Positions 1-39,866 of a DNA stretch of 64,000 nt are shown piece by piece. Origin of the DNA: Pseudomonadota bacterium (lineage in GTDB: Bacteria > Pseudomonadota > Gammaproteobacteria > Steroidobacterales > Steroidobacteraceae). Location: the NCBI GenBank assembly GCA_021808195.1, contig JAKBCE010000020.1:4145-68144 (forward strand), in the 5' to 3' direction. The position numbers were made by a program, and so were the translations under genes. A model generated the notes under the pieces. That model was not told the origin of the DNA. It made no database searches and saw only the letters and a program-made list of their open reading frames with translations. Position 1 is the first letter of the stretch. Each line of letters begins with the position of its first letter.

Positions 1-1512
1 CGCACGCAGGTACTGAACCTCCTGCTGCAGGTCGGTCTCGGTCAGCGGGTGAGCGGCGAGCCAGCGCGCCGGGAAGGTGAGCTGCAGCGAGCGGGCGCTG
101 GCGGACACCTCAATCGGCGGCAGCGCGGCGCGCTCGCGTCCCCGGTGCAACAGCACCGCAAGGCGCAACAGCACAATCAGATACAGCGCATCTCGGTTCC
201 AGGGCGGCACCAGCTCGGCCAGCCCGTCGCGCGAGAGTTTGCGGCGGTGTGCGCCCACCACGCGGGCGAGCAGGCTTTGCTCGCCGCGGGAAAATCCCGG
301 CATGTCGGCGTTTTCGAGCAGATAGGCGCCGTGGCGATGATAACCACTGTGCGCGACGTCCAAGCCGATCTCATGCAGCCGGGCTGCCCACTTCAACACC
401 AGTTCGGCCGCGGGCTCGCCGCGCAGCCGCCACGACGGTCCGGCCCGCTCGAGAAATCGCAGCGCCGTCGCGGCGACGCGTTCGGCCTGCTCGGAGTCGA
501 CGTGGTAGCGCAGTTGCATGCTGCGCACGGTTCGCTCCCGGGCGTCCTCGGCCGTTTTGCGGCCGATCATGTCAAAGAGCAGTCCTTCGCGCAGCGCGCC
601 GTCGGCAATGCGCATCTCCTTCAGCCCGAGGACAGCGAAAACCTCGGCGAGAATTGCAAGGCCGCCGGGAAACACCGGTCGGCGGTCTTCGGTGATCGAC
701 GCCAGGCCGAGCGAGCGCGTGTGCCCGGCCGAGACCACGGCCTCGACGAGCCGCTCGAGGCTGGCCGCCGTAATCCGCGTGGCGCGCGGATTAATTTCGC
801 GCACGGCCTCGCCGATGGCACGGACCGTGCCGGAGCTGCCGGCGCAGTGCAGCCAGCCGCGCTCGCGAAATGCGCTGCGCAGCGGCGCGAGCTGCAGCCG
901 CGCAGCGAGTCGGGCTGCCGCCATACGCTTGGCGGAAATCTTCCCGTCCCCGAAGAAGCGCTCACTGACGACCACGCAACCGACGCGCAGGCTTTCCAGC
1001 TCGAGCGGGCGCAGACCCTGGCCGATGATCAGCTCGGTGCTGCCACCGCCGATGTCCACGATCAGGCGTCGCCCGGGCTCGGGTGGCAGATTGCTCGCGA
1101 CGCCCGCGTAGATCAGGCGCGCCTCTTCCCGGCCGGAGATGATTTCGATCGGATGCCCGAGTGCGGCCCGCGCACGCGCCAGGAATTTCTTCTTGTGGTG
1201 CGCCAGGCGCAAGGCACTGGTGCCCACGGCCCGCACGCTGCCGGCGCGCATGGCGCGCAGCCGCTGACCGAAGCGCTGCAGACAAACGATGGCGCGCTCG
1301 GCCACCGCAGCATCGATCTCGCCGTTCTCCTCCACGCCCGAGGCGAGCCGCACCATCTCGCGCAGCCGGTCTATGATGACCAGCTGGCCGTGGGAGTACT
1401 TCGCCACGACCATGTGGAAGCTGTTAGAGCCCAGGTCAACCGCCGCGAGGACATCGGGGCGGGTGCGGTCGGCGGGGCGCAGCGTGCGGGTTGCGCGGGG
1501 GGCCGGAGGCAC
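1..1512 (-). CDS. ppx: Exopolyphosphatase, Ppx/GppA family (3' end outside window)
   Basis: The protein hydrolyses terminal phosphates of polyphosphate, or pppGpp in the GppA branch. Reading leftward from about 1512, the frame stays open to base 1, so the C-terminus is cut off. The N-terminal motif VDLGSNSFHMVV (about 1400-1440) and the second phosphate loop VDIGGGSTELI (about 1040-1075) are the ASKHA-fold signatures of this family. A C-terminal HD-type region follows, with HEIGLDVAHSGYHRHGAYL near 330-400. The proposed start is a GTG 15 nt after the erpA stop; other starts are possible because the first 25 residues are not conserved. It is the last visible gene of a leftward run with tyrA, rppH and erpA. 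Family assignment is firm; Ppx versus GppA specificity is inferred. Confidence 0.88.
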   Translation of the reverse strand, partial: MPPAPRATRTLRPADRTRPDVLAAVDLGSNSFHMVVAKYSHGQLVIIDRLREMVRLASGVEENGEIDAAVAERAIVCLQRFGQRLRAMRAGSVRAVGTSALRLAHHKKKFLARARAALGHPIEIISGREEARLIYAGVASNLPPEPGRRLIVDIGGGSTELIIGQGLRPLELESLRVGCVVVSERFFGDGKISAKRMAAARLAARLQLAPLRSAFRERGWLHCAGSSGTVRAIGEAVREINPRATRITAASLERLVEAVVSAGHTRSLGLASITEDRRPVFPGGLAILAEVFAVLGLKEMRIADGALREGLLFDMIGRKTAEDARERTVRSMQLRYHVDSEQAERVAATALRFLERAGPSWRLRGEPAAELVLKWAARLHEIGLDVAHSGYHRHGAYLLENADMPGFSRGEQSLLARVVGAHRRKLSRDGLAELVPPWNRDALYLIVLLRLAVLLHRGRERAALPPIEVSASARSLQLTFPARWLAAHPLTETDLQQEVQYLRA

Positions 1513-1527
1513 GCTGCGAGCCGCCGG

Positions 1528-1881
1528 TCAGGCGGAGAACGAGGAGCCGCAGCCGCAGGTGGTCGTCGCGTTGGGGTTGCGGATCACGAACTGCGCTCCG
1601 TCGAGCCCCTCGCGGTAATCGATCTCTGCTCCCATCAGATACTGCGCGCTCATCGGGTCGACAAGCAGCTTCACGCCCTGGTTTTCGACACAGGCATCCC
1701 CATCCTGGACCTGCTCATCGAATTCGAAGCCATACTGAAGACCCGAGCAGCCGCCGCCCTGCACGAACACCCGCAGCATCAGATTGGGATTGCCTTCGCC
1801 ACGGATCAGTTCGCCGACCTTGCGCGCGGCCGCGTCGGTGAAGATGAGCTCAACGTCTGAGGTGAGTTCGGTGGTATTCAT
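1528..1881 (-). CDS. erpA: Iron-sulfur cluster insertion protein ErpA
   Basis: An A-type carrier that hands Fe-S clusters to apoproteins such as isoprenoid-pathway enzymes. The 117 aa length is typical. The three ligand cysteines are visible: C45 in GGGCSGLQY, and C109 and C111 in the C-terminal CGCGSSF. The proline-rich N-terminal extensions of SufA/IscA relatives are absent. The ATG start follows a clear gap from the DUF6776-like gene (65 nt). It lies directly upstream of ppx on the same strand. Confidence 0.93.
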
Positions 1882-35708: not shown

Positions 35709-38183
35709 TCAACCCGCTGCACGCGCCGTGATGATGCGCGGAATGACCAGCCGCGTGCCCGGACGCAGTGCATAGAAATCGGTATCGGGGTTGTACTGGC
35801 GCAGCAGCCACGCCGGTAGCCCTGCGAAGCGCTGCGTGAGCGTCCACAGCGAGTCGCCACTGCGTGTCACGTAGTGGCGCGTGCCCTCGATACGATGGCT
35901 CGCAAAATAGCTCGCTTGCAGGGCGCGGTGATAGGCGATCCGGCGCTGCTCAAACTGCTGTGCAGTCACATGGCGGAAATCCAGCCGGATCCGCTCGCCA
36001 ATACGCACCGGCTGACGCAATGCAATATGGTTGATGCGGCGCAGGTCCATCGCGCTCACGTCCAGCCATTCGGCGTAAAAGCCCAGCGATTCGGCAGTGG
36101 CCACACGGATCGTTCCCCGAGCGGAGACCGAGTAGTCCGTGGGATCCACGCTGCGTGCCGGCTCACTCTCGGCGCCGAGCATCGGACCCAGCGCCTCGGC
36201 CTGATGCGCCGAGACCGGCTGCCGGTCCGTCCCGCGAGGACTCCGCCTCGAGCGCGCGCCCGGCTGGGCAGCGGCCAGCACTGGGATGGCGCCTGCGGCT
36301 GCCGCCGACCGGGCGGAGGTTGCCTGGGCCACCAGCGCCGCAGCCTGTGGCACGCGTGCCCCGCGAGTCGCCATGGGACCATCCTTCATGGCGGCGGCCG
36401 GACCCACCGCGGCGACCTGCGCTGCCGGTGTGGCGTCGGGCAGGTGCAGCGCCTCCCCGATCCGCAACAATCCGTTGGCCGGGATGTCATTGAGGTGCGC
36501 CAGGACGGCTGCGTTGACGCCATAGCGCACAGCGATACCCGAGAGCGTGTCGCCCGGACGAACTCGATAGACGGCTGGATGCACTGCCGAGGCGGTACTC
36601 GCGGCTGCGACCTGCGCAGCCGGTGCGGCGCCGGGCAGGTGCAGCGCCTCCCCGATCCGCAACAATCCGTTGGCCGGGATGTCATTGAGGTGCGCCAGGA
36701 CGGCTGCGTTGACGCCATAGCGCACAGCGATACCCGAGAGCGTGTCGCCCGGACGAACTCGATAGACGGCTGGATGCACTGCCGAGGCGGTACTGGCCGC
36801 TGCAGTCGGTACCGCAGCCGCCAGTACCGGCTGGGCGGGCGGACGGCTCGCGCCCGGCAGACGGATCTGTTCCCCGACGCGCAGCAATCCGCCGACCGGC
36901 ATACCGTTGAATCGCGCCAGCGTCCAGATGCTGAGGTGATAACGCGCCGCGATGCCCGAGAGCGTGTCGCCCCAGCGAACGCGGTAGGTCGGCGGGCGCA
37001 ACTGTCCCGCCAGCAGCGCGTGCGGCCCGAGCCGAGCCATCAGCGCCGCGACACTCCAATGCGGACCGCGGCGCGGCAGCCGCAACCGATAACCCCGCGG
37101 CACATCGAGCTCGCCATCCCAGACCAGCCCGCGCAGCGCCGGGTTGAGCTCGCGCAGCCGCGCCGGGCTCACCTCGAGCGCCCGCTCGAGCGCGGCCACG
37201 GACACGTAACCCGGGAGCGTCAATTCATCGAAACGCTCCTCTGGCAGCATACGCAAGTCGCCAAAATAGCGCTGCGCATGCTGTTCGACGTACAGCGCGG
37301 CCAGGAACGACACATAGAAATTGCGTGAGGCAAAACCGAAAGTCGCCGAATGATAGCGCCGCACGATGGTAGCGATATTCCGGGTCCCGACGGTGTGCAC
37401 GGCCCGCAACATGCCGGCGACACCTTGGTTGTACGCAGTGATGGCCAGAGGCCAGGTACCGAGAATCCGGTGGTTGTAGGCAAGCAGCTGTGCCGCCGCA
37501 ACGGTCGCGCTGAATGGATCGAACCGCTGGTCGACCGCCGCTCCCATGCGCAGGAACCGTCGCGCGGTGCTTGGCATGAACTGCCACAGCCCTGCCGCAC
37601 CGTCCTTGGAAAACGCGCGCGGATTGTAGGCAGACTCGACCAGAGGCAGCGCGGCCAGCTGAGGCGGCAAGCCGTGCTCGGCAAGGGCGTGCGCAATCGC
37701 GTGATGCCACGCACCCGAGCGAATCAGTCCGGCCTTGAAGCGATTGGACTGACCGAGTTGAAAGCGGATATCGTCTGCCGCCTCGCGCAGCCGGGCCGCG
37801 CTTGCCTCGGGGCCCCAGAGCGCCCGAATGCGTCGTTCCTCGGGCGACAGGGGGCGCTCGCCCGCGGCAATACTGCGCAATTCGGCGGCGATTCGGTCGC
37901 GCTCGCGATTGACGATGCGCTGCCGTTCTGACGGCGAACTATGCGGCGTGAAACGCACCGTCGCATAGACGACGCCGAGATCGTTCGGGTCGTGGAGAAA
38001 ACCCTCATTGGTATCGATCTGGGTATAAACGCGAATCCAGAAATGCACCGCAGGTCGCAGCAACGCGGGACACGGCAGAGCCGAATCGTTCGCAGCGGCC
38101 TGGGCTGCAAACGCCGTGAGGAGCCCCACCCAGAACACTTGCCATGCCCCAGGCATCCGCCTGAGGCCGCTCGTCGATTTCAT
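35709..38183 (-). CDS. Lytic transglycosylase with multiple LysM domains (MltD-like)
   Basis: 824 aa. A signal peptide (1-30) precedes a helical region; the SLT domain has catalytic E183 (LPLVESAYNPRAFS) with GAAGLWQFMPSTAR and AITAYNQG. Then a degenerate LysM (about 325-370), LysM1 (399-443), two nearly identical LysM units at 473-517 and 538-582 with a 65-residue period, a low-complexity A-rich region (about 600-690), another LysM-like unit and a C-terminal LysM (about 770-815). It cleaves murein glycan. MltD of E. coli has two LysM, so this one is expanded. ATG 38183 is preceded by an AT-rich intergenic region. Confidence 0.9.
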   Translation of the reverse strand: MKSTSGLRRMPGAWQVFWVGLLTAFAAQAAANDSALPCPALLRPAVHFWIRVYTQIDTNEGFLHDPNDLGVVYATVRFTPHSSPSERQRIVNRERDRIAAELRSIAAGERPLSPEERRIRALWGPEASAARLREAADDIRFQLGQSNRFKAGLIRSGAWHHAIAHALAEHGLPPQLAALPLVESAYNPRAFSKDGAAGLWQFMPSTARRFLRMGAAVDQRFDPFSATVAAAQLLAYNHRILGTWPLAITAYNQGVAGMLRAVHTVGTRNIATIVRRYHSATFGFASRNFYVSFLAALYVEQHAQRYFGDLRMLPEERFDELTLPGYVSVAALERALEVSPARLRELNPALRGLVWDGELDVPRGYRLRLPRRGPHWSVAALMARLGPHALLAGQLRPPTYRVRWGDTLSGIAARYHLSIWTLARFNGMPVGGLLRVGEQIRLPGASRPPAQPVLAAAVPTAAASTASAVHPAVYRVRPGDTLSGIAVRYGVNAAVLAHLNDIPANGLLRIGEALHLPGAAPAAQVAAASTASAVHPAVYRVRPGDTLSGIAVRYGVNAAVLAHLNDIPANGLLRIGEALHLPDATPAAQVAAVGPAAAMKDGPMATRGARVPQAAALVAQATSARSAAAAGAIPVLAAAQPGARSRRSPRGTDRQPVSAHQAEALGPMLGAESEPARSVDPTDYSVSARGTIRVATAESLGFYAEWLDVSAMDLRRINHIALRQPVRIGERIRLDFRHVTAQQFEQRRIAYHRALQASYFASHRIEGTRHYVTRSGDSLWTLTQRFAGLPAWLLRQYNPDTDFYALRPGTRLVIPRIITARAAG
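36405..36794 (-). repeat. Two tandem 195-bp repeats coding a LysM module
   Basis: Two copies of a 195-bp unit lie at about 36405-36599 and 36600-36794. At least 160 bp of the unit is identical base for base (from the GGGCAGGTGCAGCGCC run at 36437 and 36632 to GGCGGTACT ending 36599 and 36794). The near-perfect identity of silent positions implies a recent duplication or conversion. Copy number could vary between strains. Confidence 0.9.
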
Positions 38184-38437
38184 TTACACCTCGAGATCAG
38201 TAATATTTACTAATTAATTCAAAGTGTTAAAAGCAATCGAGCTTCATCTTGGGCTCAAATTCGCCAAAAATACGTCGAATTTCTTTACATTTACGTGATT
38301 TTGAATTGCACTGGTCGGCGGCGGGACGGATCATCGCGCAAAGAATATGGGAAATCACCTGCTGTAAGTGGACATTACGTCACATTGGCGCCCTATTTCA
38401 GTATCAATCTGTCGTATGCGTGCCAAAATGCGACATC

Positions 38438-38453
38438 TGGCATGAGGATTGCT
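38438..38453 (+). promoter_or_regulatory. Near-consensus sigma-54 (RpoN) promoter
   Basis: TGGCATG-N4-TTGCT at 38438-38453, preceded by C and followed by TGA. The GG (38439-38440) and GC (38451-38452) dinucleotides are exactly 10 nt apart as in -24/-12 promoters; against TGGCACG-N4-TTGCW there is one mismatch. Start expected near 38464. No gene on this strand follows before the terminator at 38614-38641. Confidence 0.68.
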
Positions 38454-38463
38454 TGATCTTTGC

Positions 38464-38641
38464 CACCTGGGGCCGGCATGTGGTCCGAGGGGGGAAAGAA
38501 CTGAGAAAGCGCTGAGATTCCAAGAAAGCACGGGCTCGCTGCGCAACACAGACGCATGCCGTACCGTGCCGGCCTAAAAACAAAAAAGCACGACTCGATG
38601 CAAGCAAGCGACCGACCCCGCGCAAGCGGGGTCTTCTTTTT
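38464..38641 (+). ncRNA. Candidate sigma-54-dependent small RNA
   Basis: About 178 nt between the -24/-12 promoter and a strong terminator. The predicted transcript can fold: GGCCGGCA (38471-38478) pairs with TGCCGGCC (38567-38574), and GCACGG (38528-38533) with CCGTGC (38564-38569), the two being partly exclusive. An A-rich single-stranded segment (38575-38588, ctaaaaacaaaaaa) then precedes the terminator, a layout common in Hfq-bound RNAs. A frame of 88 aa at 38249-38515 crosses the promoter and looks fortuitous. No known RNA family is recognised. Confidence 0.55.
38614..38641 (+). terminator. Rho-independent terminator of the candidate small RNA
   Basis: An 8-bp GC-rich stem (38614-38621 with 38626-38633) closes a GCAA tetraloop and is followed by TTCTTTTT on the + strand. 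On the minus strand there is no T run, so it serves rightward transcription, although the leftward MFS gene ends at 38640. Confidence 0.8.
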
Positions 38642-39866
38642 ATCGGTCCACGTTCGCGCGGGCATGCCACGGCACGCCGAGCTGCGCCCCGGCAAACAGC
38701 AGCGCGGCGAGCAGCGCTGAGGCAAATGCGTAGTAGTAGGGGGCCGCCTGGCCGAACACGAACAACGCGCCCATGAGCAGATTCGACAAAAACTGGCCGA
38801 TCGCGCGCGAGACCGATAAGAATCCCATGCCGCGCCCGAGACGGGTGTGGCTGACGAGCGAGGACACCAGGGTCGGCTCGAACGTCTCCACCGCCCCCAT
38901 CCCGAAGCCGAGCACGCCCACCGCGAGGTAGAAGGCGAGAGCGTGCATGTGCCATGAGACGCTGAGCCCGATCAGCCCGGAGCCGAGCGCCGACGGCAGG
39001 TAGCCGAGCAGCCACAACGAGCGCGCAGAAGAGGTGCGCCGCGTGCCAAGCAGGTACCCACTGATCGCCGAGACACCGAGGTAGACAACGTAGGCGAGCA
39101 CGCCCCACTCGTAGCCTGCCGCCGCGTGCGCCTCAGTTGCCGTGACGATCGGAAAACCGAGATTGTAGAAACTGAACCCGTAGAGCGTCGCGGAAATCAG
39201 CAACGCCGCAAGTACTGCTTGCGGCGGTATCACGCGGGCAGCCCCGGGCGAGTCCGGCGGTGTCTGCTGCCCGTAGACCTCGCTGCGCCGCACCAGCACG
39301 AGCAGCAGCGTCGAGATCAAAAGCGGCATGATCGCCCAGAGCATCACCGTTGCGATCGCAACTTTGAGCCACAGGGCACCGAGCGCAAGCAGCGCAGACA
39401 GCATGCCGCCGCCAATATCGAGCGCGTGCAGAGTGCCGAATGCTCGGGCTCGCTCGTGCGGCGGCGTTGCGCTCACCAGCAAGGCACGGCGCGGTGGGCT
39501 GCGGAAATACCGCGCCCACCAACCCAGAACATAGAGCAGCGCCGCCAAGCCCGGCGCGTGCGCCAGGCCGGCGAGTGCCATCAGGGGTATCAGCAAGTTG
39601 CCGGCAATCGCAACCCGCTTGCGGTCAAACCGATCGCCAGCCAATCCGCCGAGGTACGAGACAAACGCTCCGCCGCCGAAGGCGATCGCCGTAACGAGTC
39701 CGAAGAAGTACACCGATGCATGCAGCTGGAAGATCAAAAAAAGCGGAAATAGAGCCGTGACCCCTTGGTAACCAAGGTCCGCGCTGAAGGCAGAGAAACA
39801 CAGCAGCCACACATCGCGCGGCAGCGCAGGCTTGTTCAACGCCACGGGAACTCCGCCGCGCCCCAC
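38640..39866 (-). CDS. MFS transporter
   Basis: 408 aa, about 12 predicted membrane segments. The loop 2-3 motif is GGLAGDRFDRKRVAIAGN, typical of the major facilitator superfamily. It belongs near sugar-phosphate/multidrug-type members; the substrate cannot be told. The start MGRGGVPVALNKPALPRDVW is used; a start at the later residues of the hydrophilic N-terminus is possible. Confidence 0.85.
   Translation of the reverse strand: MGRGGVPVALNKPALPRDVWLLCFSAFSADLGYQGVTALFPLFLIFQLHASVYFFGLVTAIAFGGGAFVSYLGGLAGDRFDRKRVAIAGNLLIPLMALAGLAHAPGLAALLYVLGWWARYFRSPPRRALLVSATPPHERARAFGTLHALDIGGGMLSALLALGALWLKVAIATVMLWAIMPLLISTLLLVLVRRSEVYGQQTPPDSPGAARVIPPQAVLAALLISATLYGFSFYNLGFPIVTATEAHAAAGYEWGVLAYVVYLGVSAISGYLLGTRRTSSARSLWLLGYLPSALGSGLIGLSVSWHMHALAFYLAVGVLGFGMGAVETFEPTLVSSLVSHTRLGRGMGFLSVSRAIGQFLSNLLMGALFVFGQAAPYYYAFASALLAALLFAGAQLGVPWHARANVDR

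Follow-up and report, generated by a model that had tools for sequence, protein, structure and literature searches.

The interval between a lytic transglycosylase gene and an MFS gene in the window, by which we mean the whole 64,000-nucleotide stretch of DNA analysed here, raises the question of what is transcribed from a promoter and up to a terminator on the plus strand when both Pfam-recognised genes flanking them are on the minus strand. The plus-strand ORFs that overlap the interval are all of 88 amino acids or fewer, and a plus-strand terminator with no evident gene to serve on that strand calls for a plus-strand transcript. The original prediction placed here a stand-alone small RNA under sigma-54 control, running from a -24/-12 promoter with one mismatch to consensus to a strong terminator, with no gene in between. 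Promoter and terminator were both found where they had been predicted, the interval holds no larger ORF, and Pfam agrees with the two neighbours that had been named. We consider it likely that the locus encodes a stand-alone, sigma-54-dependent and very probably Hfq-binding trans-acting sRNA, with a PEP-CTERM mRNA as its counterpart at the orthologous unit. The features of the locus are the following.

35709..38183, minus strand: LysM lytic transglycosylase gene (Pfam SLT and LysM), divergent, the constant neighbour of the RNA
38379..38386, plus strand: GTCACATT box, candidate sigma-54 activator site with presumed activator binding, conserved upstream of the promoter
38438..38453, plus strand: sigma-54 -24/-12 promoter, with an intact counterpart in 55 of 57 family sites
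38464..38641, plus strand: predicted small RNA of about 178 nt, its start placed from the -12 position; covered by a 17-sequence alignment
38470..38486, plus strand: 5' local hairpin (arms 38470-38474 and 38482-38486), 90.6% of cells paired
38528..38569, plus strand: central hairpin (arms 38528-38539 and 38558-38569), 99.4% of cells paired
38576..38587, plus strand: A-rich stretch, possible Hfq distal-face site, proposed from its sequence
38590..38613, plus strand: ACGACTCGATGCAAGCAAGCGACC, conserved core of the 3' module and candidate region for pairing, with 22 columns in a row invariant across the 17 sequences
38614..38641, plus strand: Rho-independent terminator, stem 38614-38633 followed by TTCTTTTTAT, conserved in relatives
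38640..39866, minus strand: MFS gene (Pfam MFS_1), convergent, its stop codon overlapping the terminator tail

Taken by itself the window makes a weak case. At 38438-38453 the site TGGCATGAGGATTGCT departs from TGGCACGNNNNTTGCW at one position, and the remaining 12 of the 13 hits to the -24/-12 motif in the window all have two mismatches; shuffled sequences give 13.98 such hits. As the motif count equals the shuffle level, the promoter site alone proves little and it is conservation that decides. Terminators of this kind numbered two in a 2-kb stretch against 2.7 in shuffles, and the fold of the window RNA alone was not unusually stable (z -0.91). Across the loci examined the density of the promoter motif was 0.0023 per 160 nt, the RNA promoters included.

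Relatives were collected by a search in which residues 1-400 of the transglycosylase served as query, and the best 80 of 210 loci were taken. Fourteen of these 80 (L001-L013 and L042) were 70-90% identical and come from metagenome-assembled genomes of Proteobacteria or Gammaproteobacteria. Using blastn with the intergenic region we found it in 10 of the best 80 loci. The promoter motif TGGCA(C/T)N5TTGC aligned in all 11 of these first sequences (the window and 10 relatives), as did the 3' segment and the terminator. Of 16 genomes searched, 11 carried the RNA, one copy each; there was no match in G008, G010, G011, G014 or G015, and the first three of these belong to the clade of the window. In one of them, the L011 locus has neither a sigma-54 site nor a 3' box in the 1500 nt that precede the transglycosylase and its genome gave no match, which makes loss of the RNA possible.

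To follow the RNA further we turned to the family to which the closest genome belongs, represented by 200 genomes out of a larger group. With blastn 34 of them gave a match, in 16 cases over at least 117 nt and in 18 over only 27-64 nt of the 3' part. Wherever the upstream sequence of a distant hit could be extracted (13 of 13) a sigma-54 site was present, 61-176 nt before the 3' box. The first alignments left out L088, where the contig begins inside the upstream part of the RNA, and L111, which consists of the terminator only. We then built a covariance model on 30 sequences, using their 3' 73 nt and no promoter. This model recovered 57 sites in 56 of the 200 family genomes (E 1e-9); 28 of the 57 are rows of the model itself, and among the 29 outside it a sigma-54 site was present in 27. 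The motif TGG(C/T)A(C/T)N5TTGC lay 119-145 nt upstream in 43 sites, 29-57 nt in five and 805-825 nt in seven, distance classes that were defined after the first cases had been seen. Two sites lacked an intact sigma-54 site: in G187 the TTGC reads ATGC, and in G009 the contig begins at the site, with a matching promoter present on another contig and on the transglycosylase contig of that genome. The model did not confirm four of the 34 blastn-positive genomes (G084, G097, G105 and G116). It gave a single site in 55 of the 56 genomes; the remaining one, G194 (L212 and L213), had the module twice, each copy with a sigma-54 site.

Beyond the family little was found. A class-wide search with the exact pattern returned one of 369 genomes, the starting genome, against five of 369 for the reversed pattern. 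A search of 296 genomes of the order gave at least 30 matches of at least 41 bits, all in genomes that are also part of the family set; many of the weak matches listed reach no further than the terminator part of the model. Three weak matches that we inspected (33-34 bits) had no intact sigma-54 site, and one of the three had a loose site 868 nt away, behind a long ORF. As far as these searches reach the RNA family is therefore narrow.

Within the family the RNA is well conserved. The alignment of 17 sequences (the window and 16 relatives) has 76 invariant columns and the promoter is conserved in all 16 relatives. The central hairpin contains two pairs with compensatory changes, a number equalled by one of 500 shuffles, although related rows inflate such figures; covariation in the 5' hairpin is suggestive only with 17 sequences. 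Two complementary pairs of segments had been proposed, and both exist in the window. The pair 38528-38533/38564-38569 falls within the conserved central hairpin and stands, whereas the long-range stem 38471-38478/38567-38574 is unconserved, being paired in 68.4% of cells when shuffles give 67.8%, and most relatives can form the local hairpin 38470-38474/38482-38486 instead. Alignment with relatives was a check set beforehand, and it returned a conserved promoter, central hairpin and terminator. Together with the 3' segment these strongly support the idea of a stand-alone sigma-54 sRNA, and on such comparative grounds it is very likely that there is a conserved, stand-alone RNA driven by sigma-54.

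The strongest conservation lies at the 3' end. The A-rich stretch, which had been noticed in the window, is likewise A-rich in relatives, with AAN/ARN-like runs at the corresponding place in other clades; we take A-rich runs of the AAN/ARN type to be a motif for the Hfq distal face. It is followed by ACGACTCGATGCAAGCAAGCGA, a run of 22 nt that is invariant in the 17 sequences and stands immediately before the terminator. The CAAGCAAGCGACC part of this core is common to the other clades. Where these have CTCCTC or a close form the window clade has CTCGAT, so that the anti-Shine-Dalgarno look of the segment is not universal and, with the CUCCUC motif missing from the window clade, the shared core reduces to CAAGCAAGCGACC. 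The segment is predicted to be single-stranded, though RNAalifold draws a small stem within it. In the window clade the U tail of the terminator is interrupted by a C (UUCUUUUU), and such a tail is modest for Hfq. The original interpretation was partly supported, and both this conserved core and the protein-coding counterpart described below lay beyond the view of its reader.

The locus itself is as constant as the module. In 56 of 57 loci a LysM transglycosylase gene lies divergent to the RNA unit, comprising 17/17 near loci, 27/28 distant loci, 5/5 with the short form and 7/7 with the PEP-CTERM form; the exception, L213, has no transglycosylase in the sequence examined. The neighbour on the MFS side varies between clades. 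Extrapolated distances from promoter to transglycosylase were 149-191 nt for the PEP-CTERM form, 204-357 nt for the short form and 246-372 nt for distant loci, and among near loci 254-305 nt in 14 of 17, with 655, 1060 and 2314 nt in the other three. At 13 more distant transglycosylase loci (L014-L020, L022-L026 and L034) no divergent sigma-54 site was seen over the 1500 nt that precede the match. We also observed that the start context of the transglycosylase (38160-38200 in the window, and in relatives) is unusually conserved, mostly reading GTGTAAATG with TCGAC or CCGAC a few bases on, in near, distant and short-form loci alike.

In seven genomes a sigma-54-driven PEP-CTERM gene carries the 3' module in its 3'UTR, at a distance of 805-825 nt from the promoter. 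The module directly follows the ORF and the terminator is shared in all seven loci, the stop codon standing 24 nt before the 3' box in the four loci measured. The PEP-CTERM domain was recognised by TIGR02595 at 27.3 bits (cut-off 16) in the one protein tested, and the others are homologous to it. The shared locus beside a divergent transglycosylase, the shared promoter design and the shared 3' module point to one sigma-54 unit that takes the form of an sRNA in some genomes and of an mRNA ending in the same tail in others. We regard this tie between the RNA and a PEP-CTERM transcription unit as the most interesting result.

To place the two forms we used a maximum-likelihood tree of 68 transglycosylase rows; L213, which gave no match, is left out of it. 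The PEP-CTERM form falls into a single clade (100/100) and the short form into another (98/86), and these two are joined in a common clade (100/97); opposite them the long forms group together at low support (91/58). Ten rows are from loci with no detected RNA, seven of them outside the window clade and three (L008, L010 and L011) inside it, L008 and L010 being cut by contig ends. From these sequences the tree could be explained by one gain of the ORF or by two losses or more; to gain an ORF between promoter and tail is mechanistically odd. It is possible that one orthologous unit has evolved between a pure sRNA gene and a PEP-CTERM mRNA, keeping promoter, activator box and 3' module while the ORF was gained once or lost at least twice, so that the RNA would be the lasting function and the protein optional cargo. 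The window clade would also have swapped the CUCCUC half for CUCGAU and then frozen it. We put even weight on this history being right and being wrong.

The promoter is accompanied by a further conserved element. TC(A/G)CA is found 49-64 nt upstream of the TGG in 47 of 57 promoters, compared with a mean of 1.2 and a maximum of 4 in shuffles; this set consists of the window, 16 near, 28 distant, five short and seven PEP-CTERM loci and is not identical to the 57 model sites. TCACA or TCGCA stands exactly 59 nt before the TGG in 7/7 PEP-CTERM, 23/28 distant and 10/17 near promoters, and in only 1/5 of the short form. A strict pattern of box plus promoter gave 21 matches in 18 of 24 genomes, 18 at the RNA locus and three at flgB, with none for the reversed pattern. 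A looser one gave 20 matches in 15 of 17 genomes (14 at the RNA promoter, three at flgB and three elsewhere), with five for the reversed pattern. The flgB promoters belong to three close relatives (L191, L192 and L193, around 1500-1574), where a sigma-54 site is accompanied by GTCACAYTCC at nearly the distance seen at the RNA promoter. As the same box stands before flgB in these three relatives we considered a flagellar role, and a link to motility had also been suggested in the original prediction. The presence of the RNA does not follow flgB, which is found in 33 of 56 genomes with the module and 91 of 144 without (p 0.63), and the flagellar role was set aside. Nor did anything observed here favour the ties to type IV pili, nitrogen or carbon that the original prediction had raised, and a pilus role is unsupported.

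These elements suggest how the unit may work. An NtrC-type activator would bind the GTCACATT box, which lies about 58 nt ahead of the -24 element, and with sigma-54 it would switch on an RNA of about 178 nt that ends in the strong terminator. The working part would be the 3' module, made up of the A-rich stretch, the invariant ACUCGAUGCAAGCAAGCGACC segment and the terminator with its U tail, and this module would pair with mRNAs on Hfq. In the PEP-CTERM form the mRNA would probably release the sRNA from its 3'UTR. RpoN and Hfq each scored over the cut-off in 54 of the 56 module genomes, and base pairing on Hfq is the best inference for the action of the RNA. Near a second rpoN copy, within a few kb, L232 and L234 (G154 and G184) carry an NtrC-type regulator; judged by coordinates the same arrangement occurs in G020, G037, G160, G191, G197 and G201, all of which carry the RNA.

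A more specific proposal, compatible with the sRNA explanation, is that the unit belongs to the PrsK/PrsR regulon of exosortase and PEP-CTERM genes and serves the control of extracellular polymer or surface proteins. The PEP-CTERM twin at the same locus fits this, as does the enrichment of PrsR (TIGR02915 over cut-off) in genomes with the module, 35/56 against 34/144 without it (Fisher p 4e-7, uncorrected for kinship), and PrsR is present in six of the seven genomes with the PEP-CTERM form. Sigma-54 promoters of PEP-CTERM genes and a prediction for PrsR have been described (PMC1569441, PMC9850573), and in Desulfovibrio vulgaris all five PEP-CTERM targets predicted for a regulator encoded on a plasmid were bound by it (PMC3333781). 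However, PrsR is missing from 21 of the 56 module genomes, which genome incompleteness hardly explains given that RpoN was found in 54 of them, and the box at the RNA promoter reads TCACAT where the PrsR-type motif, as given in PMC1569441, ends in TTTACA. On absence and motif mismatch we rejected PrsR as the sole activator, and we find membership of its regulon doubtful, a tentative idea at most. Among NtrC-like proteins that score next to PrsR (eight regions) the neighbours did not point to the RNA.

Three further readings differ from the sRNA explanation in what the conserved sequence is for. An RNA that titrates a protein, in the manner of CrcZ or RsmY, would soak up Hfq through its A-rich motifs with no pairing to mRNA. 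Sigma-54 control and AAN/ARN-like stretches agree with this, but each molecule has few A-rich sites, the A-rich runs vary in length and letters, and the best-conserved part is the non-A-rich CAAGCAAGCGACC segment with the terminator, so that we think titration unlikely. If there were no RNA gene at all, the conservation would reflect regulatory DNA of the divergent transglycosylase, combined with a chance likeness to promoter and terminator; that gene is indeed the constant neighbour and its own start region is conserved. Against this, invariant blocks continue past the promoter, in the window as far as about 460 nt from the gene, and include a terminator pointing away from it, and in the seven PEP-CTERM genomes the module persists far from the promoter behind an ORF, which makes regulatory DNA highly improbable. 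We give marginally less credit still to a small protein encoded within the RNA: short plus-strand ORFs are present in the window, but no start of an ORF of at least eight codons ending inside the RNA was common to at least five of the 17 sequences (ORFs running off the end were uncounted), and gaps in the alignment break the reading frames.

For the pairing sRNA that we prefer, two target searches were carried out, both of them weak tests. Perfect 12-nt complements of the core outside the locus numbered 12 in the 56 genomes against 16 for a reversed-pattern control, and three of the twelve that we examined shared no common gene. The module paired with the start region of the neighbouring transglycosylase gene no better than with shuffled regions, the energies (observed/shuffled, in kcal/mol) being -19.9/-19.8 for near, -19.9/-18.8 for distant and -15.4/-15.7 for short-form loci; a start was recognised in 38 of the 46 loci given, and in none of the seven PEP-CTERM loci.

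How does this RNA relate to known systems? The Rfam library gave nothing above threshold in the window or in nine homologous loci; four weak matches over 551 bases (E up to 10) were to other families, all below the gathering score. The covariance model of CrcZ likewise had no gathering match in the window, so the likeness to CrcZ-type RNAs suggested earlier does not extend to identity. CrcZ and NrsZ of Pseudomonas are stand-alone RNAs under sigma-54, and CrcZ acts as a long decoy for Hfq with multiple motifs. The RNA described here is like them in being stand-alone with a sigma-54 promoter, and unlike them in its neighbours and in the lack of an Rfam match above threshold. Qrr1-5 of Vibrio are stand-alone sRNAs dependent on sigma-54 and Hfq that have a conserved core, whereas here there is one site per genome in nearly every case.

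A close mechanistic precedent for the PEP-CTERM form is GlnZ of Enterobacteriaceae, which, according to the part of PMC9731577 available, is an RpoN-dependent sRNA from the 3'UTR of glnA with a Rho-independent terminator and a link to Hfq, and whose release from an mRNA parallels the one predicted for the PEP-CTERM form. A stand-alone form at the same locus is not described in that portion of the paper, which also mentions NrsZ; the sequence relation between the two RNAs was compared through Rfam only. MalH and MicX of Vibrio occupy one genomic place and yield an sRNA by two modes of biogenesis in two species, the difference being the RNA's own promoter in the account we could draw on (PMC9438474); here promoter type and 3' module stay and it is the ORF that is present or absent. 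Dv_sRNA2 of Desulfovibrio vulgaris, of unknown function, was found with the binding motif of the response regulator DVU0679 and is its target (PMC3333781); it adjoins the gene of its regulator, unlike the RNA here, and is likened to it by description rather than by sequence.

In titles and abstract openings of the open-licence literature on sigma-54 small RNAs, PEP-CTERM, PrsR/PrsK and sRNA evolution we did not find this RNA. It would add a well-conserved and apparently uncatalogued family of sigma-54 RNAs in bacteria for which metagenome-assembled genomes are the main source of knowledge, and this family is tied to a locus coding, in a sister branch, for an exosortase-sorted (PEP-CTERM) protein. 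The long RNA, the short RNA and the mRNA with the same tail make a natural series in which the origin of an sRNA from a protein gene, as against the capture of an ORF, is directly testable. We also observed, in the L151 locus (1450-1530, plus strand), a sub-threshold Rfam match to the Pseudomonas sRNA P9 (23.5 bits, gathering 43, E 0.41), which overlaps the 3' module on the opposite strand.
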